From Clostridium sp. (GTDB lineage: Bacteria; Bacillota; Clostridia; Clostridiales; Clostridiaceae), in NCBI GenBank assembly GCA_029257045.1, contig JARIDB010000080.1:1-63202 (forward strand): a stretch of DNA of 63,202 bases. Direction: 5' to 3'. Numbering within the stretch: position 1 is the stretch's first letter; each line of letters opens with the position of its first letter. The notes beneath the pieces were generated by a model. The model searched no databases, was not told the DNA's origin, and worked only from the letters and a program-made list of their open reading frames with translations. Positions 4,734 through 32,728 of the stretch are shown one piece after another. Position numbers and translations under genes: made by a program.

Positions 4734-5375
4734 TTAACCACCAAGGGTAACATCTTGCTCATTATACCAATCTAAAGCATTATAGAAATCTTTAGAATCA
4801 AAATCAGGCCAATAGGTGTCTATTATATAGAAATCTGAATAAACAGATTGTACTGGTAAAAAACCACTAAGCCTTCTTCTACCACCCCATCTTATAATAA
4901 GATCAATTCTAGAAATATCTTCTGAATGTATATAAGGTATAATATGTTTTTTAGATGAATCTGATTCCTTCAATAAATTCAAATCCCATTCCCATCCATA
5001 GTGAATCAAAAAGTTTACCTTAATTCCACCTTTTCCAAACCTTTTTCTAGTAGTAAAAGGAAGTAAAACCTTTGGGAAAACATCTGATTTAGTATTTCCA
5101 AGGACTAATATTTCACAATCTTCTTTAGTTAAGAGCATAACTGAATCAATACAAGCTTGGGTAAATGCAAGTTTTTGTTCAGAGGGGCGCTTTGTATTAT
5201 CTACAGTAAAACCGTAGAAGGTTATTTCCTTTACATTTTCCTTTTGACAAAGCTTAAATAATTCAAGACCAGGATTAATTCCATGTTCATATCCTTTATC
5301 TTTAGTTAAATTATTTGATACTGCCCAGCGTCTGTTGCCATCAGGAATTATTCCAATATGTTCTGGTACTCTCAT
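4734..5375 (-). CDS. Short cis-prenyltransferase (undecaprenyl diphosphate synthase family)
   Basis: This 213-residue Z-type isoprenyl diphosphate synthase begins HIGIIPDGNRRWA, with the catalytic Asp12 in DGN (usual form HVAIIMDGNGRWA). The isopentenyl-diphosphate binding segment near the end, RWGGRRRLSGFLPVQSVYSD, corresponds to the conserved RxxGExRxSxFLxWQ motif but has Gly-Arg where Gly-Glu is common. It is about 30 residues shorter than typical UppS and stands alone rather than with cdsA, so I infer a paralogue making a shorter or special polyprenyl chain. The minus-strand site ATGGAGGA precedes the ATG. Confidence 0.8.
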   Translation of the reverse strand: MRVPEHIGIIPDGNRRWAVSNNLTKDKGYEHGINPGLELFKLCQKENVKEITFYGFTVDNTKRPSEQKLAFTQACIDSVMLLTKEDCEILVLGNTKSDVFPKVLLPFTTRKRFGKGGIKVNFLIHYGWEWDLNLLKESDSSKKHIIPYIHSEDISRIDLIIRWGGRRRLSGFLPVQSVYSDFYIIDTYWPDFDSKDFYNALDWYNEQDVTLGG

Positions 5376-5635
5376 AAATCCTCCATAAAACTAAACTTAA
5401 TATTACTAGTTTTCCCCAAAGAGTATAAAATAAACATTAAGTTTTATATTATAGATTAATTAAAAATCTCTTAAAGATATCAATTACTTAAACTCTGATA
5501 CTTACAAGAGATCTTTAAATTATGCATAATAGAATTCATTTATAATTATGTAGTTTTCTATTAATTATAGAGATTAAGTTTTTACGATTACTATAGATTT
5601 AATGGTTAACTTGAATTTAGAATATTAAGTATATT

Positions 5636-6427
5636 TTAACCAATAAATATTTCAGGTTCACAGATATTATTTTCAAATTTAGAAATTAACATAGCCTTAA
5701 AGTTTAGATACCCTTCATCGATAAAATCTTTTGCATTAACAGGGCATTTTTTTATACAACTACAACACTTTAAACATTTACTAGAATCTATAACTGATAA
5801 GTTTTCAAAATCAATAGCAGCTGTAGGACAATTATTAGCACAAATACCACAATTAGTACAAGCTTCGTTAGTTACAGGAGCTATACTTGAAAGTGGTGAA
5901 GTCTTTACTATATAAGGATAATTTCCTGGTAAAGATAGTGAGTTGAGTTCATCTATAGAAGCTATTTCATCAAGTCTATTTTTTATGCTTGTACCAAATT
6001 TATGTGCTATATCTAAATCATTTAAATTTGGTCTTGATTTAGCCAATTTATCAGTATAAGAATGTTCTGCAATAAATGTAGCTGCTGCTAATGATGTAGC
6101 ACCTTTATCTACAAAGATATCTTTTAATTCTAAAAGTGAATCTTCATAATCCCTATTACCATAAGTAGTAACAAAGATAGCTAAGGAGTTATTACAATTG
6201 ATTTTTTCTACATATTCATTTAAAACCTTAGGAAACCTTCCAGCATAAGTGGGTACTCCTATTATAAGTAAATCATCTTCAGTAAAATTTAGAGTTTCAG
6301 TTCTATTTTGAGGTAAGGTGATATTAAATTCTTCATAATTTTTAGTTATAGCATCCCCAATAGCTCTAACGATCTTTTTTGTACCTTCTGTAGGACTAAA
6401 ATAAATTAATTTTAAGTTTCTTTTCAT
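5636..6427 (-). CDS. EFR1-type flavodoxin-ferredoxin protein
   Basis: This 263-residue cytoplasmic electron carrier fuses an N-terminal flavodoxin fold (IYFSPTEGTKKIVRAI, FMN phosphate loop; VPTYAGRFP) to a C-terminal 2[4Fe-4S] ferredoxin. The two cluster motifs are C190-x2-C193-x2-C196-x3-C200-P and C218-x2-C221-x2-C224-x3-C228-P. This is the EFR1 family architecture of anaerobes. Its redox partner is not evident from the neighbours, which are unrelated. The start is supported by AAAGGAATG upstream on the minus strand. Confidence 0.9.
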   Translation of the reverse strand: MKRNLKLIYFSPTEGTKKIVRAIGDAITKNYEEFNITLPQNRTETLNFTEDDLLIIGVPTYAGRFPKVLNEYVEKINCNNSLAIFVTTYGNRDYEDSLLELKDIFVDKGATSLAAATFIAEHSYTDKLAKSRPNLNDLDIAHKFGTSIKNRLDEIASIDELNSLSLPGNYPYIVKTSPLSSIAPVTNEACTNCGICANNCPTAAIDFENLSVIDSSKCLKCCSCIKKCPVNAKDFIDEGYLNFKAMLISKFENNICEPEIFIG

Positions 6428-6497
6428 ATAAATTCATTCCTTTATAATAATTTTTAAAATAAATATAACAAAATATATTATCTTTTCTTTGATATAT

Positions 6498-6722
6498 TCA
6501 ATTAAATACTTTTTCAAAATTTATGCTATCACACCATTTTCCATTAAGATAAATATGGTTAGTAGTACGTCCAGAAAATTCAAAACCATTTTTAATCAAA
6601 ACTATTTGAGAACATATATTATCAGGTGATGTACCTGATTCTATTATATTAAGTCTATGTTTGTTTATGGCTTCGTCTAAAATAAGCTTCATAGCCTTAG
6701 TTGCATAACCATTATATAGCAA
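6498..6722 (-). pseudogene. 3' fragment of a GNAT acetyltransferase
   Basis: The 74-residue frame starts abruptly at NGYATKAMKLIL, i.e. inside the acetyl-CoA binding helix of a RimJ-like GNAT. It ends properly with ENGFEFSGR-like and HIYLNGKWCDSINFEK strands (seen as KNGFEFSGRTTNHIYLNGKW). The first two-thirds of the domain is absent. The sequence upstream on the same strand has stops and no homology. No ribosome-binding site precedes the ATG, so this is a truncated relic. Confidence 0.7.
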
Positions 6723-6900
6723 TTGCTATAATGTAATTATATACCTTAAAAACCAAAAAACAATAAATTTAGTTCGATATAATGTAGTAAAAGGTTTTTA
6801 ATATGTTCTAAAATTATGAAAAAGGATAAGTTTATTATATAATTAATTAAAGTGATTTATTATACAATTAAGATTTAAACTAAAGGGGGGAATAGAATAA

Positions 6901-7281
6901 ATGAAATTAAATAAAATTCACCATGTGGCTATAATAGTCTCAGATTATGAAAAATCTAAAGATTTTTACGTTAATAAGTTAGGGTTTAAAATAATAAGAG
7001 AAAATTATAGAGAAGAAAGAGAAGATTATAAATTAGATTTAAGGCTTGGTGATTGTGAAATTGAATTATTTTGTATGAAAGATAGTCCTAAAAGATTAAC
7101 AAGACCAGAGGCATGTGGATTAAGACATATAGCATTTAAAGTAGATAATATCGAGGAAGTTATTGAAGATTTAAAGAAAAGTGGAATAGAAACAGAGCCT
7201 ATAAGAATAGATGAATTTACTAATAAAAAAATGACTTTTTTCTTTGATCCTGATAATTTACCTTTAGAACTTCATGAGTAA
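6901..7281 (+). CDS. VOC-family metalloprotein, YaeR/SMU1112c-like (glyoxalase I-like)
   Basis: This 126-residue single vicinal-oxygen-chelate protein begins KIHHVAIIVSDYEKSKDFYVNKLGF. The metal-ligand pattern is present: His in the first beta strand (HHVA), Glu in EIELF, His in GLRHIAFKV, and Glu in LPLELHE. This length and the PEACGLRHIAF segment resemble YaeR-type proteins, which bind a divalent metal; the substrate is not known. It has a strong AGGGGGG site. Confidence 0.85.
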   Translation: MKLNKIHHVAIIVSDYEKSKDFYVNKLGFKIIRENYREEREDYKLDLRLGDCEIELFCMKDSPKRLTRPEACGLRHIAFKVDNIEEVIEDLKKSGIETEPIRIDEFTNKKMTFFFDPDNLPLELHE

Positions 7282-7414
7282 AGGTAAAAATAAGTTTATT
7301 TATACGGATTTAAAGTTATAGATAAGTAGGGTACAGAATATTATCTGTACAATTGTTACATAAAATAAGTTATGCTAAAATTATTAAAGAATATAAAATA
7401 TAAGGAGTTTGACT

Positions 7415-7921
7415 ATGACAGAAGTATTAATAGACTGGTTTACTAATACATTGAGCTTTATGCCAAAAGAGGTTATTGTATTTATAATATCTATGGTTCC
7501 AATTTTAGAACTTAGGGGAGGCTTGGTTGCCGCATCATTACTTGGAATAGGTATGTTTAAAGCTATTGCTATATGTATTTTAGGAAATTTAATCCCAATA
7601 CCATTTATACTTTTATTTATAACACCAATATTTAATTGGATGAAAAAAACAAAGTTATTAAAGCCAATAGTTGAAAAGTTAGAAAAAAAATCTATGGATA
7701 AAAGCAAGGATATTAAGAAATATGAATTCTGGGGATTAGCTCTTTTCGTTGGTATCCCACTACCAGGAACAGGTGCATGGACTGGATCCTTAATAGCATC
7801 TTTAATTGAAATGGATATAAAGAAGGCTTTTACAGCAACAGGAGTTGGATTAGTAATAGCAACTATTATAATGAGTACTATTTCCTACGGAATTCCTTGG
7901 GCTATAAAGGTTATGGCTTAA
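7415..7921 (+). CDS. Putative small multidrug export / COG2426 membrane protein
   Basis: This 168-residue integral membrane protein has hydrophobic segments near residues 20-60 (including PILELRGGLVAASLLGIG, with the charged ELRGG turn diagnostic of this family). Further segments lie at about 100-125 (GIPLPGTGAWTGSLIAS) and at the C-terminus. It belongs to the Sm_multidrug_ex family, whose transport role is weakly supported. The start ATG 7415 is preceded by AAGGAG (7403-7407 region). TTG 7409 is in frame but too close to that site. Confidence 0.8.
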   Translation: MTEVLIDWFTNTLSFMPKEVIVFIISMVPILELRGGLVAASLLGIGMFKAIAICILGNLIPIPFILLFITPIFNWMKKTKLLKPIVEKLEKKSMDKSKDIKKYEFWGLALFVGIPLPGTGAWTGSLIASLIEMDIKKAFTATGVGLVIATIIMSTISYGIPWAIKVMA

Positions 7922-7942
7922 GCATAGGCGAAATAGTTATTA

Positions 7943-7978
7943 TAAAAGGCACTAATATTTAAGTATTAGTGCCTTTTA
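7943..7978 (+). terminator. Rho-independent terminator
   Basis: The stem TAAAAGGCACTAATA (7943-7957) pairs exactly with 7964-7978. Confidence 0.9.
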
Positions 7979-8105
7979 TAATTAAAAATAATAAATAATT
8001 AATGATCAGAAGAGCTTATTATGATTTAAAAAGTAATAATATTTTAATTTAGTAGAATAATAGATTTAAAGGAATATAATGATAAAACAATTTTCTTAAA
8101 ACAAC

Positions 8106-8134
8106 TTGAACAAAAATAATTTTCGTGATAATAT
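8106..8134 (+). promoter_or_regulatory. Sigma-A promoter of the EIICB-nanE operon
   Basis: TTGAAC (8106-8111), 17-base spacer, TAATAT (8129-8134). The inverted repeat at 8119-8140 overlaps the -10 element. Confidence 0.75.
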
Positions 8135-8140
8135 GAAAAT
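8119..8140. promoter_or_regulatory. Candidate operator (inverted repeat) over the -10 box
   Basis: ATTTTC (8119-8124), 10 bases, GAAAAT (8135-8140) forms a perfect 6-bp inverted repeat covering the -10 element. By position it should be a repressor site. The RpiR regulator at 10544 is the natural candidate. Confidence 0.5.
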
Positions 8141-8211
8141 GTATTCAGGAAAAGAATTTTTACAAAAAGAAATATATGAAAAATATTTTTAGGAAATAGG
8201 AGGAATTATAA

Positions 8212-9705
8212 ATGTTTAAACAACTACAAAAACTTGGAAAGTCATTTATGTTACCAATTGCCATATTACCAGCAGCTGGTTTATTGCTTGGTATAGGGGG
8301 AGCTTTATCAAACCCAAATACAGTTCAGGCATATCCATTTTTAAATATTGGATGGCTACAAGGTATTTTTGCAATAATGTCATCTGCAGGAGAGGCAGTA
8401 TTTGCTAACTTAGCACTTATTATATGTATAGGACTTTCTGTAGGATTAGCTAAAAAAGATAAGGGAACTGCAGGTCTTGCAGGTGCAGTATCTTTCTTAG
8501 TTATGAATGCTTCAATAAATGGGATGATAAAAGCTTTCAATCCAGCCGTTGGATCAATAGATACTGGTGTTGTTGGAGCTATAGTAATTGGATTAACGGT
8601 ATCATCTCTTCATAATAAATATGGAAATATTGAATTACCAGCCGTTTTAGGATTCTTTGGTGGATCAAGATTTGTACCAATAGTTTCTTCATTTGCAGCA
8701 ATCTTCATTGGAGCTATATTCTTTTTAATATGGCCAACATTCCAAGGATGGTTAGTTGCAGCAGGTACTGGAATATCAAAATTAGGTGTGTTTGGAACTT
8801 TCTTATATGGATTTTTATTAAGATTAACAGGTGCAATTGGACTACACCACATGATTTACCCATTATTCTGGTATAGTGAATTAGGTGGAGTTGCAAATAT
8901 TGCAGGAGAAACGATTGTAGGAGCTCAAAATATATTCTTTGCACAATTAGCAGATCCAAACCATACTGGATTATACACAGAAGGTACAAGATTCTTTGCA
9001 GGACGTTTTGCTACAATGATGTTTGGATTACCAGCAGCATGTTTAGCTATGTATCATTGTGTACCTAAAGATAAGAGAAAGTTAGTTGCTGGATTATTTC
9101 TAGGAACAGCAGTAACATCATTTGTTACTGGTATAACTGAACCAATAGAATTTATGTTCTTATTCGTCGCACCTTGGTTATATGTAGTTCATGCTTTATT
9201 TGATGGATTATCTTTCTTAGTAGCAGATTTATTAAATATATCAGTAGGTAATACATTCTCAGGTGGATTAATAGACTTTACGTTATTTGGAGTGCTTCAA
9301 GGTAATGCTAAGACAAATTGGATGTACGTAATACCAGTAGGTATAGTTTGGGCAGTATTATATTACGTTACATTCAGATTCTTAATAACTAAATTTAATG
9401 TTAAGACTCCAGGTAGAGAAACAGAAGAAGAAGAAATTAAGGTTGTTACAAAAGACAATATGAGTGAAACTGCAGCTCAAATTTTAGAGGCATTAGGTGG
9501 TAAAGATAACTTAGATGATGTAGATGCTTGTATAACAAGATTAAGAGTTGCGGTTAAAGATGTAAACAAAGTTGATAAAAATAGAATTAAAGCCTTAGGA
9601 GCTACTGCTGTATTAGAAGTTGGAGGCGGAGTTCAAGCAATATTTGGAGCGAAAGCAGATCCATTAAAGCAAAAAATAAATGAAATTATAGGGAGAGATC
9701 AGTAA
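8212..9705 (+). CDS. PTS sugar transporter EIICB, glucose/N-acetylglucosamine family
   Basis: This 497-residue PTS permease imports and phosphorylates a sugar. The EIIC membrane domain spans about 1-390 ([24 protein letters not shown] at the start, [11 protein letters not shown] and [17 protein letters not shown] in the substrate pocket). It is followed by a linker and an EIIB domain with the phosphorylated Cys440 in [13 protein letters not shown]. There is no fused EIIA, so the phosphate probably comes from a separate EIIA such as crr at 59973. nanE follows 2 bases later, so I infer an N-acetylated amino sugar, perhaps N-acetylmannosamine, as substrate. Glucose cannot be excluded from sequence alone. 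Confidence 0.88.
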
Positions 9706-9707
9706 AA

Positions 9708-10361
9708 GTGAAAAGTATAGAAAGAGGATTAGTTGTATCTTGTCAAGCATTAGATAATGAACCATTACATAGCTCTTATATAATGAGTAGAATGGCTGTA
9801 GCAGCTAAAGAAGGTGGAGCTATAGGTATTAGGGCTAATAGTGTTGAAGATATAATTGAAATAAAAAAAGAAGTTAATTTACCTGTAATAGGTATAATAA
9901 AAATAGATTATGAAGGTATAAAGTCTTATATAACACCAACTATGAAAGAAATTGATAATCTTGTAGCAACTGGAGTAGATGTAATTGCTTTAGATGCAAC
10001 AATTAATCAAGATGAAGAATTTTTAAAAGAAATATTCATTAAATATCCTAATCAACAGTTTATGGCAGATATCTCTACTATAGAAGAAGGGTTAAGAGCT
10101 GGAGAATTAGGATTCCATTATGTTGGAACTACTTTAGTTGGATATACAGAACAATCTAAAGGTAGTAATAATTTTGAGATTTTAGAGGTTTTAATAGAAA
10201 AATGCAAAGGTAAAGTAATAGCTGAAGGGAATTTTGATACTCCTGAGAAGGCTAGAAAAGCTTTAGAAAAGGGTGCTTATGCTGTTGTTGTAGGTAGTGC
10301 TATAACTAGACCACAGTTAATAACTAAAACTTTCAATGATGAAGTTATAAAAGCATTATAA
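9708..10361 (+). CDS. nanE: N-acetylmannosamine-6-phosphate 2-epimerase
   Basis: This 217-residue TIM-barrel epimerase converts ManNAc-6-P to GlcNAc-6-P in the cytoplasm. Visible family segments are [51 protein letters not shown] and [17 protein letters not shown] sequence, ending in a glycine-rich phosphate loop, [13 protein letters not shown] 9708 is the start, preceded by GGGAGAGA overlapping the end of the EIICB gene, so the two are translationally linked. No nanA or nanK is present here. The substrate therefore probably arrives already phosphorylated through the PTS. Confidence 0.92.
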
Positions 10362-10371
10362 TTATAAAAAG

Positions 10372-10410
10372 GGAGCCTTTCCACAATCATAATTGTGGAA
10401 AGGCTCCTTC
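10372..10410 (+). terminator. Rho-independent terminator of the EIICB-nanE operon
   Basis: A perfect 16-bp stem (10372-10387 with 10392-10407; core GGAGCCTTTCCACAAT) has a 4-base loop, followed by TTCTT. Confidence 0.9.
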
Positions 10411-10543
10411 TTAAATTAATAGATATTAATTTACAATAAGGATTAAATTATGAATAAAGATGCTACTCTTTTATTTGTTTTAATTTAATGGTATTCTAAT
10501 TTATATAGGGTAAGGTTTATATTATATTCTGTGGAGGTAGTAA

Positions 10544-11347
10544 GTGGATATTTTATGTGAAATACAAAGAAAATATAATGATTTTTCTGATAAGGAAAAG
10601 GCTATAGCTGATTATGTAATGCAATATGCAGATCAGATAAGGAATATAAATATAACTGACTTAGCAAAGGAAACAGGGACATCGGGGGCAACAATAACAA
10701 GGTTTGCTAAAAAGGTAAATTGTGATAACTTTGTAGATATGAAGATAAAACTTGGATCAAATAAAGCTGATACAAATATTACTGAAGAGGGTGGAATATT
10801 TTCATATGTATATCAATATTATAATGAAGTTATAGAAAGAACTAGAATGTTAATTGATAAGGAATCTATATCTAAAATTGTAAAAGAAATAAAAGAAGCA
10901 AGGAATATATATATATATGGGGTAGGAAGTTCTGGACTTACTGGGGAAGAAATGATGAAAAGATTAATGAGAATGGGGTTTAGTGTGCACTGTATTTCAG
11001 ATTCTCATATGATGATAATTAACAGTTCTATTGTTTCAAAGAATGATCTAGTTATAGGGATCTCTATATCGGGTGAAACAGAAGAGGTTAATCAATCATT
11101 AAGTATATCTAGGAAAAATGGAGCTAAGACAGTTTCAATAACAAGCTTTGAAGGAAGTTCAATAAATAATTATGCGGATATAATGCTTTTAGTATATAAT
11201 CCTAAGTTTGTAGATAGAAGTAGATTTGTAAATTCCCAATTTTCAGCAATGTATCTTATCGATTTAATAACCATGGTTCTATTAGAAGACGATAACTTAA
11301 GAAATAAGATGCAAGCAACAATTGATGCTATTATTAATAATCAATAA
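10544..11347 (+). CDS. MurR/RpiR-family transcriptional regulator
   Basis: This 267-residue regulator has an N-terminal RpiR helix-turn-helix domain (about 1-80; DLAKETGTSGATITRFAKKV is the recognition region). A C-terminal SIS sugar-phosphate binding domain spans about 105-240 (IYIYGVGSSGLTGEEMMKRL; IGISISGETEEVNQSL). Such proteins respond to phosphorylated amino sugars. Next to EIICB-nanE it probably controls that operon in response to ManNAc-6-P or GlcNAc-6-P. The start is GTG 10544 with GGAGGT at 10532-10537. It is transcribed separately because a terminator precedes it. Confidence 0.87.
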   Translation: MDILCEIQRKYNDFSDKEKAIADYVMQYADQIRNINITDLAKETGTSGATITRFAKKVNCDNFVDMKIKLGSNKADTNITEEGGIFSYVYQYYNEVIERTRMLIDKESISKIVKEIKEARNIYIYGVGSSGLTGEEMMKRLMRMGFSVHCISDSHMMIINSSIVSKNDLVIGISISGETEEVNQSLSISRKNGAKTVSITSFEGSSINNYADIMLLVYNPKFVDRSRFVNSQFSAMYLIDLITMVLLEDDNLRNKMQATIDAIINNQ

Positions 11348-11411
11348 TAAAAACTTGAACCAAAGTCTATTAATAAACTTAACTTTTATATTAAGAGTTA
11401 AGTTTAATTTA

Positions 11412-11440
11412 TTGACAATAAAAGAAAAACTATATATAAT
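11412..11440 (+). promoter_or_regulatory. Consensus sigma-A promoter of the ohrR-like gene
   Basis: TTGACA (11412-11417), exactly 17 bases, TATAAT (11435-11440). Confidence 0.9.
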
Positions 11441-11448
11441 AAAATTAA

Positions 11449-11478
11449 TTGATGTAAATTTAATTGATATAAATTAAA
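11449..11478. promoter_or_regulatory. Candidate OhrR operator: tandem 15-bp repeat
   Basis: Two consecutive 15-base units, TTGATGTAAATTTAA and TTGATATAAATTAAA, lie at the expected transcription start. The second lies in a palindrome, TTTAATTGATATAAATTAAA (11459-11478). The same arrangement occurs at 12004-12033 before the peroxidase gene. Confidence 0.65.
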
Positions 11479-11507
11479 TGTTGCAAATTAATTTGAGAGA
11501 GGTATAT

Positions 11508-11939
11508 ATGGATAAATATGAAGTAATTAAATTAGATAATCAATTATGTTTTTCTTTTTACGCTATATCAAGAGAAATAATAAAGCTTTATAAACCTATA
11601 TTAGATAAATTTAATCTAACTTATACTCAATACATAACAATGCTTGTACTTTGGGAAGAGTATGAAATTAACTTTAAAAGATTAGGGGAAAGACTTCATT
11701 TAGATTCTGGGACTTTAACACCTGTTGTTAAAAAACTTGAAGGAATGGATCTGGTAAGCAAATATAGAACTAAAGAAGATGATAGGGTAGTTGTTGTTAA
11801 ATTAACGGAAAAAGGAAAAGATTTAAAAAGAGATATTATAGAAGTTCCAAAGGAGCTTTCTTGTAAAATTGATATTAAACAAAATCAATACTTAGAATTA
11901 AAGAAATCTTTAGATGGTGTTTTAGAAAAATTAAGTTAA
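11508..11939 (+). CDS. ohrR: OhrR-type MarR-family organic peroxide sensor
   Basis: This 143-residue MarR winged-helix regulator contains KLDNQLCFSFYAISREI, with Cys14 at the position of the single peroxide-sensing Cys of Bacillus OhrR. It also has KPILDKFNLTYTQYITMLVLWE, and the recognition/wing part GERLHLDSGTLTPVVKKLE and RTKEDDRVVVVKLT. Oxidation of this Cys by organic hydroperoxides releases DNA. I use ATG 11508 (GAGAGGT upstream) rather than the in-frame ATG 11478, which lies inside the operator. No ohrA gene follows; instead a glutathione peroxidase does. Confidence 0.85.
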   Translation: MDKYEVIKLDNQLCFSFYAISREIIKLYKPILDKFNLTYTQYITMLVLWEEYEINFKRLGERLHLDSGTLTPVVKKLEGMDLVSKYRTKEDDRVVVVKLTEKGKDLKRDIIEVPKELSCKIDIKQNQYLELKKSLDGVLEKLS

Positions 11940-12003
11940 ATATAAGATAAGTAAGTAGTTTAGAATCTTTAGATATAGACTACTTTAAATATAAAATTAT
12001 TGG

Positions 12004-12033
12004 TTGATATAAATTAAATTGATAAAAATTGAA
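12004..12033. promoter_or_regulatory. Second copy of the candidate OhrR operator
   Basis: Tandem 15-base units TTGATATAAATTAAA and TTGATAAAAATTGAA lie just upstream of the first peroxidase. They match the repeat before ohrR in sequence and spacing. Confidence 0.6.
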
Positions 12034-12052
12034 TTAGAAGGATGTGTTTTAA

Positions 12053-12529
12053 TTGGGATTCTACGATTATTCAGCAAAGAGCATAAACGGCAAAGAGGTT
12101 AGTATGAAAGACTATGAAGGAAAGGTACTGTTAGTTGTAAATACTGCAAGTAAGTGTGGATTAACACCACAATTTGAGGAGTTAGAAAGTTTATATAAGG
12201 AATATAAGGATAAAGGTTTTGAAATATTAGGGTTTCCTTCTAATCAATTTGCAAAACAAGATCCAGGAAGTAATAAAGAAATAAGTCAGTTTTGTTTAAT
12301 AAATTATGGAGTTACTTTTAATATGTTTGAAAAGATAGATGTTAATGGAGAAAAAGCCCATCCAATATATAAGTATTTAAAAGGTGAAGCTAAAGGTATT
12401 TTAAGTAAGGAAATAAAGTGGAATTTTTCTAAATTCTTAATTGATAGTGAAGGAAGGGTAATAAAAAGATATTCTCCAACTACTAAACCATTAAAGTTAA
12501 AAGAGGATATAGAAAAGCTTTTAAAATAA
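12053..12529 (+). CDS. Glutathione peroxidase family thiol peroxidase (first of two)
   Basis: This 158-residue thioredoxin-fold peroxidase has peroxidatic Cys35 in [11 protein letters not shown], the catalytic Gln in [12 protein letters not shown] (about 69) and Trp in KWNFSKFL. A Cys codon (TGT), not TGA, is used. Clostridial homologues generally use thioredoxin rather than glutathione. The start is TTG 12053 with AGAAGGATG upstream. The shared operator with ohrR indicates induction by organic peroxides. The FPCNQF resolving-type Cys of the second peroxidase is Ser here. Confidence 0.9.
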
Positions 12530-12606
12530 AACTTAATTAATATGAGAGCAAAGAAAAAAACTCTATATGGTACAAATAATAAAATAAAAAGAAAAGAGGA
12601 ATTTAA

Positions 12607-13152
12607 ATGAATATATATGATTATAAATATAAATCAATAGATGGAAAGGAAGTTTCTTTTGAAGAATATAAAGACAAACCTTTAATAGTTGTTAATATAG
12701 CTAGTCAATGTGGATTTACTCCACAACTTGAAGATCTTCAAAAATTATATTTAAAATATAAAGAACAAGGCCTTGATGTAGTAGGATTCCCTTGCAACCA
12801 GTTCATGGAACAATCACCAGAGAGTAATTCGGATTTACAAAACTTTTGTAAATTAAACTATGGAGTAACATTTAAACTTTCAGAAAAGGTAGATGTAAAG
12901 GGATCAGAGGCTCATCCTTTATTCTCATATTTAACAAGTAAATGCGCTTTTGAAGGTTTTGATAAATCTAATATTAATGATAAAATGCTTAAATCAATTA
13001 TAAGTGAAAAATATCCAGAGAACTTAGTTGGAGATGCTATTAAGTGGAACTTTACAAAGTTCTTAGTTAATAAAGATGGTAATGTTGTTAAAAGGTATGA
13101 ACCTAGAGTAGAACCCATGGATATGATAGAAGACATAGAAAAATTATTATAA
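12607..13152 (+). CDS. Glutathione peroxidase family thiol peroxidase (second of two)
   Basis: This 181-residue paralogue has Cys35 in NIASQCGFTPQ, Cys63 in GFPCNQFMEQSPESN, and KWNFTKFLVNKDG. An extra block of about 20 residues (CAFEGFDKSNINDKM) before the Trp motif makes it longer than its neighbour. It starts 77 bases after the first peroxidase, with AGAGGAATT before ATG, and no terminator separates them. Co-transcription from the ohrR-type promoter is likely. A terminator follows. Confidence 0.9.
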   Translation: MNIYDYKYKSIDGKEVSFEEYKDKPLIVVNIASQCGFTPQLEDLQKLYLKYKEQGLDVVGFPCNQFMEQSPESNSDLQNFCKLNYGVTFKLSEKVDVKGSEAHPLFSYLTSKCAFEGFDKSNINDKMLKSIISEKYPENLVGDAIKWNFTKFLVNKDGNVVKRYEPRVEPMDMIEDIEKLL

Positions 13153-13162
13153 AAGATAATTA

Positions 13163-13241
13163 GCTATTGCAAAATATAGGCTAAGATGTGATTTATACCA
13201 ATTTACATTTTGCTTAATTAATTTTGTAATAGCTATTTTTT
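13163..13241 (+). terminator. Terminator after the peroxidase pair
   Basis: GCTATTGCAAAAT (13163-13175) pairs with ATTTTGTAATAGC (13221-13233), followed by a T-run. The intervening ATTTTGC at 13207-13213 could pair alternatively. Confidence 0.6.
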
Positions 13242-13416
13242 ATTAAGCTTTATAGTAAATAAACCCTTAGATAATTATTATTGGATAAAAACTATTTTAA
13301 TTAAGAAGGATAAGAGTTATTATAATAGTGTAATAAAATAAAAGTAAGTTTTAAAGATATTAAATAACTTAGATATTATATTATTAAAATGCATGTAATG
13401 GTAAAGGTGATTTTTA

Positions 13417-25440: not shown

Positions 25441-25515
25441 GCCTTCATAGTTAAATGGATAGAACAGTCCCCTCCTAAGGGACAGATACAGGTTCGATTC
25501 CTGTTGGGGGTACCA
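25441..25515 (+). tRNA. tRNA-Arg (anticodon CCU)
   Basis: The cloverleaf is GTCCC-CTCCTAA-GGGAC anticodon arm, T-arm ACAGG-TTCGATT-CCTGT, and encoded CCA (25513-25515). The acceptor GCCTTCA pairs with TGGGGGT using several G-U pairs. The 3' end is the integration site of the element that follows. Confidence 0.92.
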
Positions 25516-25518
25516 TAT
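25497..25518. repeat. attL: 22-bp direct repeat within the tRNA-Arg 3' end
   Basis: The 22 bases beginning ATTCCTGTTGGGGG and ending CCATAT are repeated perfectly at 32875-32896. The repeat spans the T-arm, acceptor strand and CCA. Confidence 0.9.
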
Positions 25519-25527
25519 TGGTTTGTG

Positions 25528-25637: not shown

Positions 25638-26417
25638 CTAATAAGTCCACTTCATTATATGCTTTAAGTCAAAGTTGTTTTTAATAAGATGAATTAAATT
25701 TATATTTATAAAGCTACACGAAGTGGGAACATCTTCCTTAGTGCTATTTACGTATTTGGTAAATGTACACCAACCTGTACCAATAACTGATTGGTAGGTA
25801 TTAGTATTAAAGTGGGTGAATCTGACTATGATAAAATGGTCACTTTTATTTGATAAATTGATATCATTAAGAGGCATTTCAAAGTCTTTAGTTAAATCTA
25901 TTTTATTTTCTAGAACATATTTGATTGAAGATTTAAGTAGATTTGAATTGGTTATTGTAATAAATCTCATAGTATTTTCATCTATAAGCCAATGGAGTTT
26001 ATTGGAGGTTATATCAAATATAGAGATATATTTATTGGTTATGTCTATTGAATCATTTAAAAAACTTTCATAATTATTTTTACGTGTTAAGAATAAATCT
26101 CTTTTTATTGGAATTGGGGTAAATTTATTTAAGAATTGTTTTATTGTAAAAGCTTTAAATTCTAACTTAGTAATTGTAAAAGTTGGTGGAGAATCATTAA
26201 CTGACGCAATATTATATAATGGATTTAATTTGTTTATATAATATAACTCATATATGTCCATATCAATTTTATTTTGACAAGTTGCAATATGAATATGAGT
26301 TACTTCAGAAAACCATTTTTGTGAACTTTTATGTGAATTAAATCTTGAGTAAATATTAATGCTTTTTCCTACGTATAATAAAGTTTTTTCATTGTAGAAC
26401 AAATAAATATAAAACAT
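25638..26417 (-). CDS. GIY-YIG nuclease-domain protein
   Basis: This 259-residue protein has an N-terminal GIY-YIG domain: FYIYLFYNEKTLLYVGKS (YVGKS at 15-19 replacing YIG), Arg25 and His29 in SRFNSHK, catalytic Glu57 in DIYELYYINKLNPLYN. The remaining 180 residues are unrecognised and polar. It is cargo between the integrase and attL. It may be a nicking/homing-type or anti-phage nuclease; I cannot decide. AAGGAG precedes its ATG on the minus strand, and a structured segment lies about 120-240 bases further upstream. Confidence 0.8.
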   Translation of the reverse strand: MFYIYLFYNEKTLLYVGKSINIYSRFNSHKSSQKWFSEVTHIHIATCQNKIDMDIYELYYINKLNPLYNIASVNDSPPTFTITKLEFKAFTIKQFLNKFTPIPIKRDLFLTRKNNYESFLNDSIDITNKYISIFDITSNKLHWLIDENTMRFITITNSNLLKSSIKYVLENKIDLTKDFEMPLNDINLSNKSDHFIIVRFTHFNTNTYQSVIGTGWCTFTKYVNSTKEDVPTSCSFININLIHLIKNNFDLKHIMKWTY

Positions 26418-26792: not shown

Positions 26793-27911
26793 TTAAAAAC
26801 TAGAAATTTTATTATCAAAGATTTTATCAAGTAATGAAGCAGTATTCTTCTTCATATCTTCCATAACATGAGTATAAGTATTTAATGTTACAGAAATATC
26901 TTTATGTCCTAATCTATCACTAACAACTTTAATATTTTCACCATTAAAAATTAAAATGGTGGCATGGGTATGTCTTAGTGAATGGAAAGTTATTTGTTTT
27001 AGGTTTTTATATTTTGACACCTTTTTAGAAAATTCCATAGAAATATTTCTAGGAGTAGCCATTCCACCATTTCTATCTTTTATAACAAAGTCATTAATAT
27101 TATCAATATCGAGCTCTCTAAGAGCTGTTAGGTGATTAACTAATATATTTGGTATGGAAATACTCCTATAGCTTGTAGAGGTCTTTAAAACATCAGATAG
27201 AATTAATTGCTTATTTAACTTATCCTGTATAACTTGACTACATACAGTTATATAACCATTATCAAGGTCAACAGAGCTCCATTTTAAACCACAAATCTCA
27301 CCTATTCTCAAACCTGTTAGTAAAGATATAAATACTGGAGAATATATATAATTATCTCTTATTTCATTAAGAAAAAAATCTATGTCTTCTTTATTCCAAT
27401 AATCTATTCTGGGTTTTTCTAATTTCATTTTTTCGATATCAGTTGGAACATTGTATATTAATTTATTTTTCTTAGCATAGTTAAAACAATTATTTAATAT
27501 TTCAATTATCTTTTTAGCACTAGCAGGAGCTAACTTTTTATCATTTATTAGGCTATTATAAAAGTTTTGTACAATTATATTAGTTATATCAGTTAATTTA
27601 TAATGACCAAGTTTGGGTATAATATGATAGTTTATTCCACTAAGATAGTTATTTTTTGTATTAATACCTAGCGTATTACACTTATAATCATTGAACCATT
27701 GAAGTATGAAATCTTTTAAAATAATATTATTTGTTGATGGAGTAATATAACCTTTATTTCTTTTACTCAATATTTCAGTAACAAATATTTCGGCTTCCTT
27801 TTTATTCTTGAACCCTTGTTTTTTAACCCTGTTTTTTTTACCGTTCTCATCATATCCAAGCGAAATAACCACTTGCCAATTATATTTTGATAATTGAGTG
27901 AAACTAGCCAT
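26793..27911 (-). CDS. int: Tyrosine-type integrase
   Basis: This 372-residue site-specific recombinase has an arm-type N-terminal domain (about 1-55), a SAM-like core-binding domain (about 60-160; LQWFNDYKCNTLGINTKNNY) and a catalytic domain. The catalytic domain carries Arg202 (TGLRIGEI), His310-x2-Arg313 (HSLRHTH), His336 (LGHKD) and nucleophile Tyr346 (NTYTHV). It integrates and, with the excisionase, removes the element at tRNA-Arg. Its ATG overlaps the stop of the repressor gene (TAATG), so both are expressed from the repressor promoter. Confidence 0.95.
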   Translation of the reverse strand: MASFTQLSKYNWQVVISLGYDENGKKNRVKKQGFKNKKEAEIFVTEILSKRNKGYITPSTNNIILKDFILQWFNDYKCNTLGINTKNNYLSGINYHIIPKLGHYKLTDITNIIVQNFYNSLINDKKLAPASAKKIIEILNNCFNYAKKNKLIYNVPTDIEKMKLEKPRIDYWNKEDIDFFLNEIRDNYIYSPVFISLLTGLRIGEICGLKWSSVDLDNGYITVCSQVIQDKLNKQLILSDVLKTSTSYRSISIPNILVNHLTALRELDIDNINDFVIKDRNGGMATPRNISMEFSKKVSKYKNLKQITFHSLRHTHATILIFNGENIKVVSDRLGHKDISVTLNTYTHVMEDMKKNTASLLDKIFDNKISSF

Positions 27912-28554: not shown

Positions 28555-28752
28555 ATGAATATAAAAATTGCTAGAATAAAAAAGGGGTACACACAAAAGG
28601 AGTTATCTAGAATATTGAGGATTTCTCCAAATAAGATGGTTAAGATTGACAAAGGTGATTATACAAATACAACTTATCCATTAATGGTTAAGTTGGCAGA
28701 GGTATTAGATTCTACACCATATAAATTATTTTTTTCTAAGGAGGAAAAGTGA
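28555..28752 (+). CDS. Cro-like XRE-family regulator
   Basis: This 65-residue protein is a single helix-turn-helix domain (RIKKGYTQKELSRILRIS then KMVKIDKGDYTN). It faces the repressor across the operators, so it should be the antirepressor/Cro equivalent. GGGAGGT precedes the ATG. Its stop overlaps the next start (TGATG). Confidence 0.85.
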   Translation: MNIKIARIKKGYTQKELSRILRISPNKMVKIDKGDYTNTTYPLMVKLAEVLDSTPYKLFFSKEEK

Positions 28753-29054
28753 TGATTGAAAAATTTGTAAAAGAGGTATTAACAGTTGAAGAATTTTCAA
28801 AGATAGCTAATATATCTTTGGCACATACTAGACAATTATTGAGAGAAAGAAAAATTAATGGGGTTAAGGTAGGTAAGGAGTGGAGAATTACTAGGGAAGA
28901 ATCAGATAAGTATTTAGGAATAACTACTGATATTAAAATGGTGGAAAAAGAAATATATATAAGGGAACTTGAAGGAAAAGTTAAAACCTATGAGATGCAA
29001 ATTAATACATTTAAAAATATTGTTGGGACACTTGAAAATATTGTTGGTATGTAA
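28752..29054 (+). CDS. Excisionase-like helix-turn-helix protein
   Basis: In this 100-residue protein, residues 8-56 are an excisionase-family MerR-like winged helix: EVLTVEEFSKIANISLAHTR then RERKINGVKVGKEWRITREE. The C-terminus is a short coiled coil. It is the probable recombination directionality factor for int. I start at ATG 28752 (overlapping the upstream stop, GGAGG at 28740) rather than GTG 28749. Confidence 0.82.
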   Translation: MIEKFVKEVLTVEEFSKIANISLAHTRQLLRERKINGVKVGKEWRITREESDKYLGITTDIKMVEKEIYIRELEGKVKTYEMQINTFKNIVGTLENIVGM

Positions 29055-29957
29055 ATGCAGGTATATAAGGATAGTGCAAAAGGTATAAAATCTGTAGGGC
29101 AAGAAATTTTTTTTAGTGCATTTGATAAAAGGTCTAGGGAAATATTTAATGAGGATATGGATAAATTTTTGGTTTTAGCTTGGATAATTTATAACACAAA
29201 TTATCAGATTGAGTATAAAGGGTTAGAAAGAAATCAATGTTATTTTAGTTATTCTGTTTTAGAAAATAAGTTAAGAATAAAAAGGAGTAAGTTGCAGAGG
29301 ATTATTAGAGAGTTGGAAAGTGAAGATATTATTCAATGGATATATAAATCTAACTATAAAGATAAGAAGAGCATCATAGTATTAAAAAAAAGATACAGTA
29401 AAAAATATGATAATCAATACGGTAAAGTTATTGATATAACTAGTGTTAATAAAGATACGAATATAGTAAATGATATAGTAAAAGATACATATTCTATAAA
29501 TCCATCTATAAATAAATCTATATTAAAAGAAGAAGAAGAAACTTTCAATGAAAGTAGTTTAGATAATAATATTTTAATAATATATAAAGAATATATTTCT
29601 ACATATATTACTAATAATGATAAAGCAATCTTAGTTAACTTACAAAAAAAATATGGAATAGATATCTTAGAAAAGGCAATTATAGAAGCAGGAAAAAATA
29701 ATGCCAAGACTATAAAATATATAATTAGAACATTAGAGGATTGGAGTTCAAGAGGATTTAATAATTTATTAGAAATAGAGATACATTTAGAAAGCTGGAA
29801 AGAAAAAAATAGAAAAGCTAAAGATAATAAAGAGAAAAAGGTTGATAGATTATCACAACGAAATATAAATAATAAATCGGTAATAGAAAATAGTAAGGTA
29901 GAATATGAGAAATATTATAAATTAGAACAAAAACTTTTAGGTTGGGATAATGAATAA
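29055..29957 (+). CDS. DnaD-domain replication-type protein
   Basis: In this 300-residue protein, residues about 35-115 look like a winged helix (FSYSVLENKLRIKRSKLQRI then RELESEDIIQW). After a Ser/Asn/Asp-rich linker, residues about 175-245 match a DnaD/DnaB2 domain (YISTYITNNDKAILVNLQKK; AKTIKYIIRTLEDWSSRGF). Phage and plasmid proteins of this form load helicase at an origin, implying autonomous replication after excision. The ATG follows the upstream stop directly, suggesting translational coupling. Confidence 0.8.
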   Translation: MQVYKDSAKGIKSVGQEIFFSAFDKRSREIFNEDMDKFLVLAWIIYNTNYQIEYKGLERNQCYFSYSVLENKLRIKRSKLQRIIRELESEDIIQWIYKSNYKDKKSIIVLKKRYSKKYDNQYGKVIDITSVNKDTNIVNDIVKDTYSINPSINKSILKEEEETFNESSLDNNILIIYKEYISTYITNNDKAILVNLQKKYGIDILEKAIIEAGKNNAKTIKYIIRTLEDWSSRGFNNLLEIEIHLESWKEKNRKAKDNKEKKVDRLSQRNINNKSVIENSKVEYEKYYKLEQKLLGWDNE

Positions 29958-30981: not shown

Positions 30982-31081
30982 TATACAAAAGTGTATAATT
31001 AATATTATAAGAGGTAATAGTATTAATATTACGAGGTAAATTTGAAAATAATTAAATAGTATTAATTATTTTAGGAGGTAA
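30982..31081 (+). promoter_or_regulatory. Leader of the XRE-ImmA-PIN operon with operator and repeated SD-like units
   Basis: An inverted repeat TATAC-N6-GTATA (30982-30997) overlaps a TATAAT (30994-30999). Three similar units follow at 30998-31017, 31022-31039 and 31061-31081, each ATTAATTATT-like and ending GAGGTAA. Only the third precedes the real start codon (31087). Confidence 0.6.
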
Positions 31082-31086
31082 TTATA

Positions 31087-31431
31087 ATGAAAAAGATAAT
31101 TGGAGAAAAACTACAATTTGCTAGGAAGACAATAGGATTTACTCAAGAGTATGTAGCTAATAAATTAATGATAAGTAGAGGAAAAGTTATAAAAATAGAG
31201 AAAGGGGAAATAGAGGTAGATTTATCATTGCTAAATAGTTTTTCAAATCTATATGGATATTCACTAGATTATTTTATTAATTTCAAGGAAGAGAATGAAG
31301 ATGAAACATTAAGCTTTGCATTTAGAGCTGCTGAAATAACAGAACAAGAGTCAGAAATTTTAGCATGGGGAAATAAAATTTTAACAAATATAAGATTACT
31401 TGATGAGATAATAGAGGAGGCTAATATATAA
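31087..31431 (+). CDS. XRE-family antitoxin-like regulator of the ImmA/PIN operon
   Basis: This 114-residue protein has an N-terminal helix-turn-helix at residues 5-60 (GEKLQFARKTIGFTQEYVAN then KVIKIEKGEIEV). A C-terminal acidic/helical part (ESEILAWGNKILTNIRLLDE) is likely to contact the protease. In ImmR/ImmA pairs the protease cleaves such a repressor. The stop TAA is followed immediately by the ATG of the protease gene, giving tight coupling. It probably represses its own promoter at 30982. Confidence 0.82.
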   Translation: MKKIIGEKLQFARKTIGFTQEYVANKLMISRGKVIKIEKGEIEVDLSLLNSFSNLYGYSLDYFINFKEENEDETLSFAFRAAEITEQESEILAWGNKILTNIRLLDEIIEEANI

Positions 31432-32190
31432 ATGGATTTAGACTTAGATTTACGAGCGAGGACAAGAGCCAGAGAGAAGAGGCAAGAATTGTTATTGGGG
31501 GATGGACCGATTAATGATATTTTCTTGTTGATTGAAAGTTTGGGAATAATTTTATTTAAAAAACCATTTGAAAGTCAGAGTCTCTCAGCATTGTTTATGA
31601 AAGATAGCAAAAATTATATTATGGTTATTAATTCAAACAAAACTTTAGGACATCAAATATATTCGGCAGCTCATGAACTAAGTCATTTTTTCTTTGATAA
31701 AGGGATAAAGGGTGGAGTATGTAGTGTTAATGCATCAAAAGATACGATAGAAGTATTAGCTGATAAGTTCGCAGAGTATTTTTTGATGCCAGATGAAACT
31801 ATAGTTAAAGAATTGGATAAAAAATTAATTGATGGTAAGGAACTTGATGTATTTGATATTATATATTTACAACATTACTTTAAAGTCAGTTGGAAGGCTA
31901 TTTTGATTAAATTAAAAAAGCTTGGATATATAAAGGATATTAATAAGTATAATAATATCGGAATAACAAAATTAACAGCAGCATTAGGATATAATACTGA
32001 TTTGGTAACTGTAACTAAAGAACAGTATATATCAAAGAAATATTTAGAAAAAGCTCTTAAGTGTTATGATAGTTATGAAATTAGTGAAAAAAGGTTAGAA
32101 GAGTATCTTAATGATGTAGATATATCAATTACAAATATGGATTTAGAATGGGAAAATAATGGTGTACAGGAGGCTTGCATAGATGAATAA
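31432..32190 (+). CDS. ImmA/IrrE-type metallopeptidase
   Basis: This 252-residue zinc protease has the active site SAAHELSHFFFD (His81, Glu82, His85) and third-ligand region ADKFAEYFLMP (Glu115), the COG2856 pattern. Relatives cleave a partner XRE repressor after DNA damage or peptide signals. The last 80 residues (about 170-252) are an extra acidic domain of unknown function, which could bind the PIN protein or sense a signal. It overlaps the PIN gene by 8 bases. Confidence 0.87.
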   Translation: MDLDLDLRARTRAREKRQELLLGDGPINDIFLLIESLGIILFKKPFESQSLSALFMKDSKNYIMVINSNKTLGHQIYSAAHELSHFFFDKGIKGGVCSVNASKDTIEVLADKFAEYFLMPDETIVKELDKKLIDGKELDVFDIIYLQHYFKVSWKAILIKLKKLGYIKDINKYNNIGITKLTAALGYNTDLVTVTKEQYISKKYLEKALKCYDSYEISEKRLEEYLNDVDISITNMDLEWENNGVQEACIDE

Positions 32191-32728
32191 AATGCCGCCT
32201 TTTGTATTAGACAGCACGGTAATATTTAATTTTTGCAAGACTGGTAATTTTAGTATATTATCAAAACTTTATGCGGAAAATATGATAATACCTACAGATG
32301 TGTTCCTTGAAATTGTAGTTCATAGTGACGTTGATATTATTATAAGGCAAGCTATAAATGATAAAATAATAGAACAATATTCTATTGATTGTAATAGTGA
32401 GAATGATGAGATTAGATTTTATTTAGATATAAGAAAAAAATATGGGCTTGGTGAATCGGCATGCATAGCAATAGCTAAAAAGCGTAGATGTACTGTAGTT
32501 AGTGATGATATGAGAGCTGTAGTACGTTTGTGTAGGCGTGAAGGTATTAAGTTTATGGGGACATTAGGAGTGTTATATGAAGCCTATGATAAAGGGATAA
32601 TTAATCAGGAAGAAGGGCAAAAAATATTAAGTGATATGATTATCACTAGTAGATATAGGAGCCCGGTAAGAGATTTTCAAGAAATAATAGATTGGTTTAA
32701 AGATGGACAAGGTAGAGAATTGTTTTAA
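32183..32728 (+). CDS. PIN-domain ribonuclease-like protein
   Basis: This 181-residue protein has the acidic PIN residues: Asp10 in FVLDSTVIFNF, Glu43 in VFLEIVV, Glu91 in GLGESACIAIA and Asp108/Asp109 in VVSDDMRA. PIN proteins are metal-dependent RNases, often toxins. The C-terminal 50 residues are helical. Its start lies inside the ImmA gene, so its dosage is tied to the protease. With XRE and ImmA it forms a three-gene module that looks like a toxin-antitoxin or abortive-infection system. Confidence 0.85.
   Translation: MNKMPPFVLDSTVIFNFCKTGNFSILSKLYAENMIIPTDVFLEIVVHSDVDIIIRQAINDKIIEQYSIDCNSENDEIRFYLDIRKKYGLGESACIAIAKKRRCTVVSDDMRAVVRLCRREGIKFMGTLGVLYEAYDKGIINQEEGQKILSDMIITSRYRSPVRDFQEIIDWFKDGQGRELF

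Follow-up and report, generated by a model that had tools for sequence, protein, structure and literature searches.

A regulator, protease and PIN nuclease module on a tRNA-Arg element of Clostridium sp., and the possible double role of its long ImmA protein

Which protein keeps a PIN toxin in check when its gene follows those of an XRE regulator and an ImmA-type protease? The question is raised by three adjoined genes in a 63,202-nucleotide stretch of Clostridium sp. DNA (assembly GCA_029257045.1, contig JARIDB010000080.1), called the window below. A three-component toxin-antitoxin system made of XRE, COG2856 and PIN or RelE proteins was predicted by Makarova et al. in 2009 (PMC2701414). The choice of antitoxin among the XRE-COG2856-PIN proteins and the purpose of the protease have been in question since then. 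The window holds a real, conserved three-gene module of this predicted kind. Our reading, to which we give a probability of about one half, is that of a three-component toxin-antitoxin module, cargo of a tRNA-Arg element, in which the head of the ImmA protein would cut XRE and its tail would restrain PIN. A first-pass annotation of the window had described the trio and its location, and both are confirmed: the XRE stop codon abuts the ImmA ATG, the ImmA and PIN genes overlap by 8 bases, and the module lies on the tRNA-Arg element. The features of the module are as follows (window positions).

31087-31431, + strand: XRE/Cro-type repressor gene, 114 amino acids (open reading frame; HTH_3, 33.7 bits)
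31315-31329, + strand: candidate protease-site motif FAFRA, XRE residues 77-81 (linker motif, picked post hoc)
31432-32190, + strand: ImmA/IrrE (M78) zinc metalloprotease gene, 252 amino acids
31672-31686, + strand: HELSH of the ImmA active site (HEXXH)
32014-32151, + strand: C-terminal part of ImmA with a helical hairpin, residues 195-240, proposed PIN-binding antitoxin part (UPF0175 profile comparison, structural model, PIN distance correlation)
32183-32728, + strand: PIN protein of the DUF3368/PDC-S70 kind, 181 amino acids, proposed RNase toxin (open reading frame; PDC-S70, 57.4 bits)

In the AlphaFold2 model, the window ImmA consists of the protease, a helical subdomain, a hairpin (202-213 and 219-228) and a disordered acidic end, so that past residue 165 there are only short helices, the hairpin and disorder. 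A structure search with the whole model gave CapP as the solved fold closest to the head. The window PIN scores 24.2 bits with the Pfam family DUF3368, below the cut-off of 27.3, and PF11848 is given in the precomputed annotation. Its acidic residues are D10, E43, E91 and D108/D109; the full set of four noted at first pass is present in the window, though conservation does not extend to the fourth position.

We propose that XRE represses the operon and that the M78 head of ImmA can cut XRE in the linker past its DNA-binding domain, with F79-R80 as candidate site, which would raise expression, much as CapP acts on CapH and PprI on DdrO. The C-terminal hairpin and acidic tail of ImmA would bind PIN and hold this RNase inactive, standing where related operons have a separate UPF0175 antitoxin. 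If ImmA were engaged, cut or lost, PIN would be freed, RNA would be cut and growth would stop, as in addiction or abortive infection. XRE cleavage, tail-PIN binding, PIN toxicity and defence are what we infer here.

What was computed comprises the order of the genes and how far it is conserved, their folds and active sites, the alternation of ImmA with UPF0175, and the coupling of the tail with PIN and of the head with XRE. For this last point, pairwise distances were taken over the 29 loci having all parts, i.e. XRE, the ImmA head (residues 1-165), the ImmA tail (195 to the end) and PIN, and each coupling was expressed as a partial correlation given the other two parts. The mean distances of the four parts are alike (0.62-0.65). 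The strongest coupling is that of tail and PIN (partial r 0.74), followed by head and XRE (0.60); tail and XRE reach 0.25, XRE and PIN -0.09, and tail and head 0.03 although both lie on one chain. Permutation p values, computed with no model of common descent, are 0.0005 for tail-PIN, head-XRE and head-PIN and 0.0015 for tail-XRE. With Poisson or rank transforms, or with the fastest head columns, tail-PIN stays at 0.63-0.80 and head-PIN lies between -0.19 and 0.30 (0.02-0.03 overall by ranks). When the ends that overlap on the DNA were cut off, tail-PIN was 0.63 by distances and 0.70 by ranks, head-PIN by ranks was 0.02, and tail-head by distances was -0.02. As far as we searched, this split between head-XRE and tail-PIN is new.

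These couplings bear on two other explanations. In the first, XRE would be the sole brake on PIN through repression, as the first-pass annotation had it, and ImmA only an antirepressor: a signal would drive XRE cleavage and turn PIN on, the tail serving e.g. for sensing. CapH and CapP exert such control on the immune operons next to them (PMC13373217), and the head-XRE coupling of 0.60 agrees with it, as does the linker motif described below, present in 37 of 37 XREs. Against it stand the almost nil coupling of XRE with PIN and the rank of tail-PIN as the strongest pair; it also leaves out a tail that tracks PIN and occupies the position of the dedicated antitoxin gene of related PINs. We regard it as rather unlikely. 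The second, which is one of the options offered by Makarova et al. (who saw XRE either as a possible antitoxin or as a member of a broader cascade; PMC2701414), holds that XRE contacts PIN directly as a HigA- or VapB-like antitoxin, and that ImmA destroys it to free PIN. The XRE-PIN partial correlation ranges from -0.12 to 0.10 over the full set, with a mean of 0.13 in subsamples of 20, and no XRE match was found just upstream (within 300 nucleotides) of any of the 31 UPF0175 genes that precede related PINs; we find this explanation improbable.

The gene found ahead of PIN was then considered over a larger sample. A PIN profile (A3, six sequences) was compared with 398 genomes of the phylum and gave matches in 82. 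The census comprises 90 PIN loci, fragments included: the window, 29 others with loci, and 60 more drawn from 73 additional PIN genes; the 13 genes left out are mostly weak matches, and four more rows are second pieces. Directly upstream of PIN on the same strand, we observed separate XRE and ImmA genes in 38 loci, a fused XRE-ImmA gene in 12 and ImmA with no visible XRE in 3. ImmA thus precedes PIN in 53 of the 90 loci, and in 30 of the 32 best-scoring ones, so that the link of PIN with XRE/ImmA suggested at first pass holds among its homologues. A UPF0175 gene takes this place in 31 loci, none of them among the 32 best-scoring. Neither partner was seen in 5 loci (fragments, contig edges or masked sequence), and one locus has no PIN open reading frame. 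No PIN of the census has both partners upstream. Pfam confirmed UPF0175, above its cut-off, in all 10 of the small partner reading frames sampled. In a PIN tree of 84 rows, some deep branches of which are long and unsure, all 36 UPF0175-linked PINs form one group (support 97/83), with the window PIN outside it. Partner type changes 4 times on this tree, compared to a mean of 34.4 after shuffling, which indicates that it is old and seldom swapped. The alternative between ImmA and UPF0175 upstream of PIN is likewise new as far as searched.

The tail itself was compared with UPF0175 by profile alignment (hhalign), after removal of one truncated ImmA (locus L076). The window-type tail aligns with UPF0175 at 49% (E 1.7e-4) and the fused-type tail at 81% (E 1.2e-5), while 100 column shuffles reach at most 1.1% and 6.1% respectively. 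With the truncated protein still in the set, the values were 70% for the window type, 84% for the fused type and 14% for tails resembling those of the PADLOC candidate PDC-M69. XRE against UPF0175 gives 0.8%, and the window-type tail against XRE 0.7%. The window-type tail aligns with the PDC-M69-like tail at 97.7% and with the fused-type tail at 91.0%. The core of the tail thus resembles that of UPF0175 weakly, above the level of shuffles, and this profile likeness suggests homology. A description of an ImmA tail as a UPF0175-like antitoxin was not found in the open-licence literature, bioRxiv preprints and most subscription papers lying outside this search.

The head offers a second line of evidence. 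A motif chosen after the sequences were seen, [AFNTVLMS][FLM]R[ASTGNKQ] past residue 62, occurs in 37 of 37 distinct window-type XREs that neighbour an ImmA with HEXXH; in the window it reads AFRA, inside FAFRA. Shuffles of the same XRE stretches gave a mean of 3.75 matches and a maximum of 9, and the motif was found in 1 of 25 XREs beside a short ImmA. Two of 39 loci were left out of this count, L061 because it is fused and L065 because it lacks HEXXH; when the HEXXH condition is dropped the count becomes 37 of 38. Among fused loci it lies near residues 76-89 in 9 of 13 and is absent from 4. In DdrO of D. geothermalis the cleavage-site loop (116-121) holds E116-L117-R118-G119, and cleavage is weakened when alanine replaces residue 116, 118 or 119 (PMC10904395). 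The likeness to this loop makes F79-R80 of the window XRE a candidate protease site, and the motif suggests that it may be one. As far as searched the motif too is new. At L065 the ImmA (2006-2758, - strand) reads HGLYH, with no catalytic Glu, and the XRE beside it has no motif, whereas tail and PIN are complete and the conserved acids of PIN are kept. This single case is in the state that a motif-cutting protease with a second, non-proteolytic job of ImmA might leave behind, and it speaks against XRE as the sole brake, ImmA and PIN being retained despite the loss of HEXXH and motif.

Taken together, we tentatively consider, with a little less than even confidence, that the long ImmA could be a two-faced hub, its head matched to XRE and its hairpin matched to PIN, which it would restrain as UPF0175 does in the sister operons, and that this class would extend over several phyla and viral contigs.

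A number of observations weigh against this interpretation. By plain distances head and PIN show a partial correlation of 0.35, which rises to 0.43 after end trimming, and the permutation p value, blind to common descent, is equal for head-PIN and tail-PIN. After trimming, tail and head reach 0.20 by ranks. Tail and PIN also adjoin on the DNA; closeness on the DNA alone nevertheless fails to explain the near-uncoupling of two parts of one chain. The UPF0175 profile was made from reading frames of the census loci themselves, and the type of partner switched only about 4 times on the PIN tree. The stretch common to tail and UPF0175 amounts to 22-26 columns, and Pfam recognized UPF0175 in none of 10 tails. 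The PDC-M69-like tail aligns with UPF0175 at 9% (shuffle maximum 1.2%) and with XRE at 24.0%, and is thus closer to XRE; the fused-type tail reaches 6.0% with XRE. Part of the UPF0175 likeness may therefore be that of any helix-turn-helix. The post hoc XRE motif is found in 10 of 18 PDC-M69-like XREs, and in its strict form [FL]R[ASTG] 59 of 104 HEXXH loci of all types have it and 45 do not (duplicates kept). L065 is one case. In RosmerTA of phage Kita the antitoxin neutralises its toxin incompletely (PMC10440598), and no toxicity, cleavage or defence result for a locus such as this one was found in the literature searched.

The long and short forms of ImmA were compared in control loci. No PIN match was seen downstream of the short ImmA at 40 loci, which are the stronger rows from the 83 genomes, among 146 of the family, in which ImmA was matched (at L185 a neighbouring ImmA of 453 amino acids was scored). 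Among 20 further loci, mostly with long and strongly diverged ImmAs, the PIN profile matched in 1; an N-terminal PIN motif, composed after some of its sequences had been seen, occurs in 8 of 12 junction reading frames of this set compared to 22 of 499 background frames. The same motif was present in 16 of 19 junction frames of the first PDC-M69B set (window and repeated loci included). An ImmA profile (A5), in a search biased toward relatives of the window ImmA, gave 80 genome loci belonging, by their titles, to several phyla; the tail is long in 78 of them, and at 53 of those 78 the PIN profile matches as well (35 of the 48 whose XRE is separate and 18 of the 30 fused ones). Among the 78 viral loci that have ImmA, PIN follows in 9, namely 8 of the 9 with a separate XRE and the single long ImmA with no visible XRE; none of the 32 fused viral ImmAs is followed by PIN, which points to other partners for most of them. 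At five loci (L044, L046, L049, L052 and L189), third genes of 290 amino acids with 'ILDNNT' near their start lie directly behind a long ImmA and probably encode another PIN-like branch. At L033 a PDC-M69-like XRE-ImmA pair is followed, 129 bases on, by a reading frame resembling by eye a type I restriction methylase, and no PIN frame was seen behind the pair.

The first-pass annotation could not name the combination as a characterised system, but besides the 2009 prediction PADLOC lists the similar three-gene candidate PDC-M69 (A, B and C). The module shares with the system of Makarova et al. an XRE helix-turn-helix protein, a COG2856 protein with HEXXH and a PIN protein in one putative operon, as well as the idea of a protease cutting the repressor. 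It differs in that the description of the 2009 system stresses fused XRE-COG2856 proteins, (PMC2701414), while the window has separate genes and a protease whose tail is the proposed antitoxin. PADLOC models were used with no application of PADLOC thresholds: the window XRE matches PDC-M69A at 25.7 bits (E 3.0e-6; other XRE models score higher), ImmA has PDC-M69B as best match (95.1 bits), PIN has no match with PDC-M69C at E values up to 1 and matches PDC-S70 at 57.4 bits (E 4.5e-16). For PDC-S70, the literature gives a PIN nuclease with a possible origin in archaea (PMC12988326). The module is thus a variant joining PDC-M69-type regulators to a PDC-S70-type PIN. Proteins of the PDC-M69C type align by profile with the window PIN type at 93% (E 2.6e-7). 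The third gene of L023 (2334-2909) matches PDC-M69C at 267.6 bits and no Pfam family at E 0.1, and this alignment could open the PDC-M69C family to annotation as PIN.

XRE-ImmA proteins serve as antitoxins in RosmerTA (PMC10440598) and in RipAB (PMC12795458), and PIN-like partners of antitoxin domains of the ImmA kind were noted with NetFlax (PMC10440598). The module resembles RosmerTA (RmrA/RmrT) and RipAB in the ImmA-domain protein proposed as antitoxin, the toxins of those systems being diverse. RmrA models match the window ImmA with scores reaching 75.6 bits and with alignments that lie mainly in the protease part; unlike in these models the window XRE is separate, fused relatives making up 12 of the 90 census loci, and the toxin candidate is PIN instead of the membrane or sliding-clamp toxins reported for the two systems. 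The VapBC-type pair UPF0175-DUF3368 (COG2886-COG2405) has a PIN of a related branch in the same gene position, often with the same 8-base overlap; the difference is that the window has ImmA where UPF0175 stands. In the Geobacillus genomes surveyed in PMC6929052, an XRE-COG2856 pair is listed with a third gene having no detected domain, together with a UPF0175-DUF3368 pair overlapping by 8 nucleotides. The role of c-di-AMP (cyclic di-AMP) receptor proposed there for the third gene (GK3183) was considered for ours and dropped; GK3183 could itself be a PIN-like third component.

The resemblance to defence systems suggests another explanation, that of a CapH/CapP-like unit responding to damage or phage, with PIN as effector of abortive infection and the hold of the tail secondary; it overlaps our preferred reading in parts and departs from it in purpose. 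As with CapH and CapP, XRE and a protease of the M78 family with the CapP fold stand ahead of an effector; unlike there, a lone PIN protein takes the place of the effector, the ImmA tail is linked to PIN, and no domain of GAF size is seen in the model. CapP carries a C-terminal GAF domain. CapP activated by single-stranded DNA cuts CapH (PMC13373217), and C-terminal GAF residues of PprI take part in single-stranded DNA binding (PMC10904395). The proteins of the module match the PADLOC candidates PDC-M69A, PDC-M69B and PDC-S70, and ImmA followed by PIN occurs in the 9 of 78 viral contigs mentioned above. VapKSC, an operon of kinase, STAS antitoxin and PIN toxin, is toxic, neutralises itself and protects against a phage (PMC13373217). 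It shares with the module a controller pair and PIN in three genes; having a GHKL kinase and STAS protein where the window has an M78 protease and XRE, it is an analogue and not a relative. On the other side, the PDCs are described as mostly untested (PMC12988326), and a domain sensing single-stranded DNA like that of PprI is not seen in the ImmA model. The phage or damage trigger of the first-pass annotation finds no support here; the model leaves little room for a GAF domain of this kind. Of its interpretation, the module of regulator, protease and PIN, the mobile element and the logic of toxin-antitoxin or defence are supported; the naming, the sole XRE brake, the trigger and the fourth acid are changed or find no support. 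We judge this defence unit unlikely.

The module lies within a 7.4 kb integrase element bounded by a tRNA-Arg repeat of which 25 of 26 bases are identical. Its features, with two repeats ahead of XRE, are:

25441-25515, + strand: tRNA-Arg (CCT), integration target
25497-25522, + strand: left attachment repeat, overlapping the 3' end of tRNA-Arg
25638-26417, - strand: GIY-YIG endonuclease-like gene just inside the left attachment repeat (33.7 bits)
26793-27911, - strand: tyrosine integrase of the element (Phage_integrase, 88.6 bits)
28749-29054, + strand: HTH_17 excisionase-like gene
29055-29957, + strand: DnaB_2/HTH_36 replication-initiation-like gene
31015-31039 and 31057-31081, + strand: two imperfect 25-base direct repeats, each ending in GAGGTAA
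32875-32900, + strand: right attachment repeat (25/26 identical), 146 bases past the PIN stop

The element also holds a divergent pair of XRE-type regulators, and this arrangement is consistent with a small integrative element that carries the module as cargo at its right end. Integration is claimed from the repeat together with the integrase. In 67 genomes of the genus, the left flank matched in 64 and the nitroreductase in 23; no empty site could be demonstrated among them, as the flank matches are more than 1 Mb apart when they fall on one large contig (e.g. G004, G012, G013 and G022). The direct repeats at 31015-31081 are possible operators or a chance occurrence in AT-rich DNA, and promoter-like sites ahead of the module are not in excess of those in shuffled sequence. 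Genes for a small XRE, HTH_17 and DnaB_2/HTH_36 proteins (28555-29957, + strand) raise the possibility that the element replicates itself like a phage satellite, and the 7.4 kb element is possibly one.

A last explanation is that XRE and ImmA steer excision or transfer of the element, as do ImmR and ImmA of ICEBs1, with PIN as a passenger. Several short ImmAs do adjoin reading frames resembling integrases or resolvases by eye. The element, however, has its own repressor and xis-like genes beside the integrase, and the long ImmA with PIN occurs in many settings, an integrase being found within 10 kb in 8 of 78 (with a model grown from the window integrase). We hold this explanation to be very improbable.

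As to close relatives, the PIN match among 68 genomes of the genus is restricted to the window's own genome. The initial PIN search returned one other protein, and PIN alignment A1 matched nothing in viral or genome contigs. Three IMG/VR contigs (L287-L289) have XRE and PIN with an ImmA 44-50% identical to that of the window, and in two of them an integrase match lies 1.1-4.3 kb away. An unannotated 8.8 kb record named 'Bacteriophage sp.' (L142, MT836782.1) contains XRE-ImmA-PIN and a tyrosine-recombinase-like reading frame; its other frames look chromosomal by eye, and it may therefore not be a phage. Modules of this type were also found in Carboxydocella thermautotrophica (L208) and in Bacillus sp. 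CECT 9360 (L213). Elsewhere, contig C19 of genome G205 has, among the matches listed, eight tyrosine recombinase matches in series on one strand (5046-13370).

The division of ImmA into a head facing the repressor and a tail facing the toxin makes the question left since 2009 directly testable. If true, it would account for the existence of both long and short ImmA proteins, and would join three separate lists, PDC-M69, PDC-S70 and RosmerTA. One protein would then both fire a transcriptional switch and hold a toxin, so that engagement of the head could release the toxin. It would also define a class of antitoxins whose PIN partners have diverged to the point that many escape standard annotation, and provide a handle for finding PIN toxins that Pfam misses.

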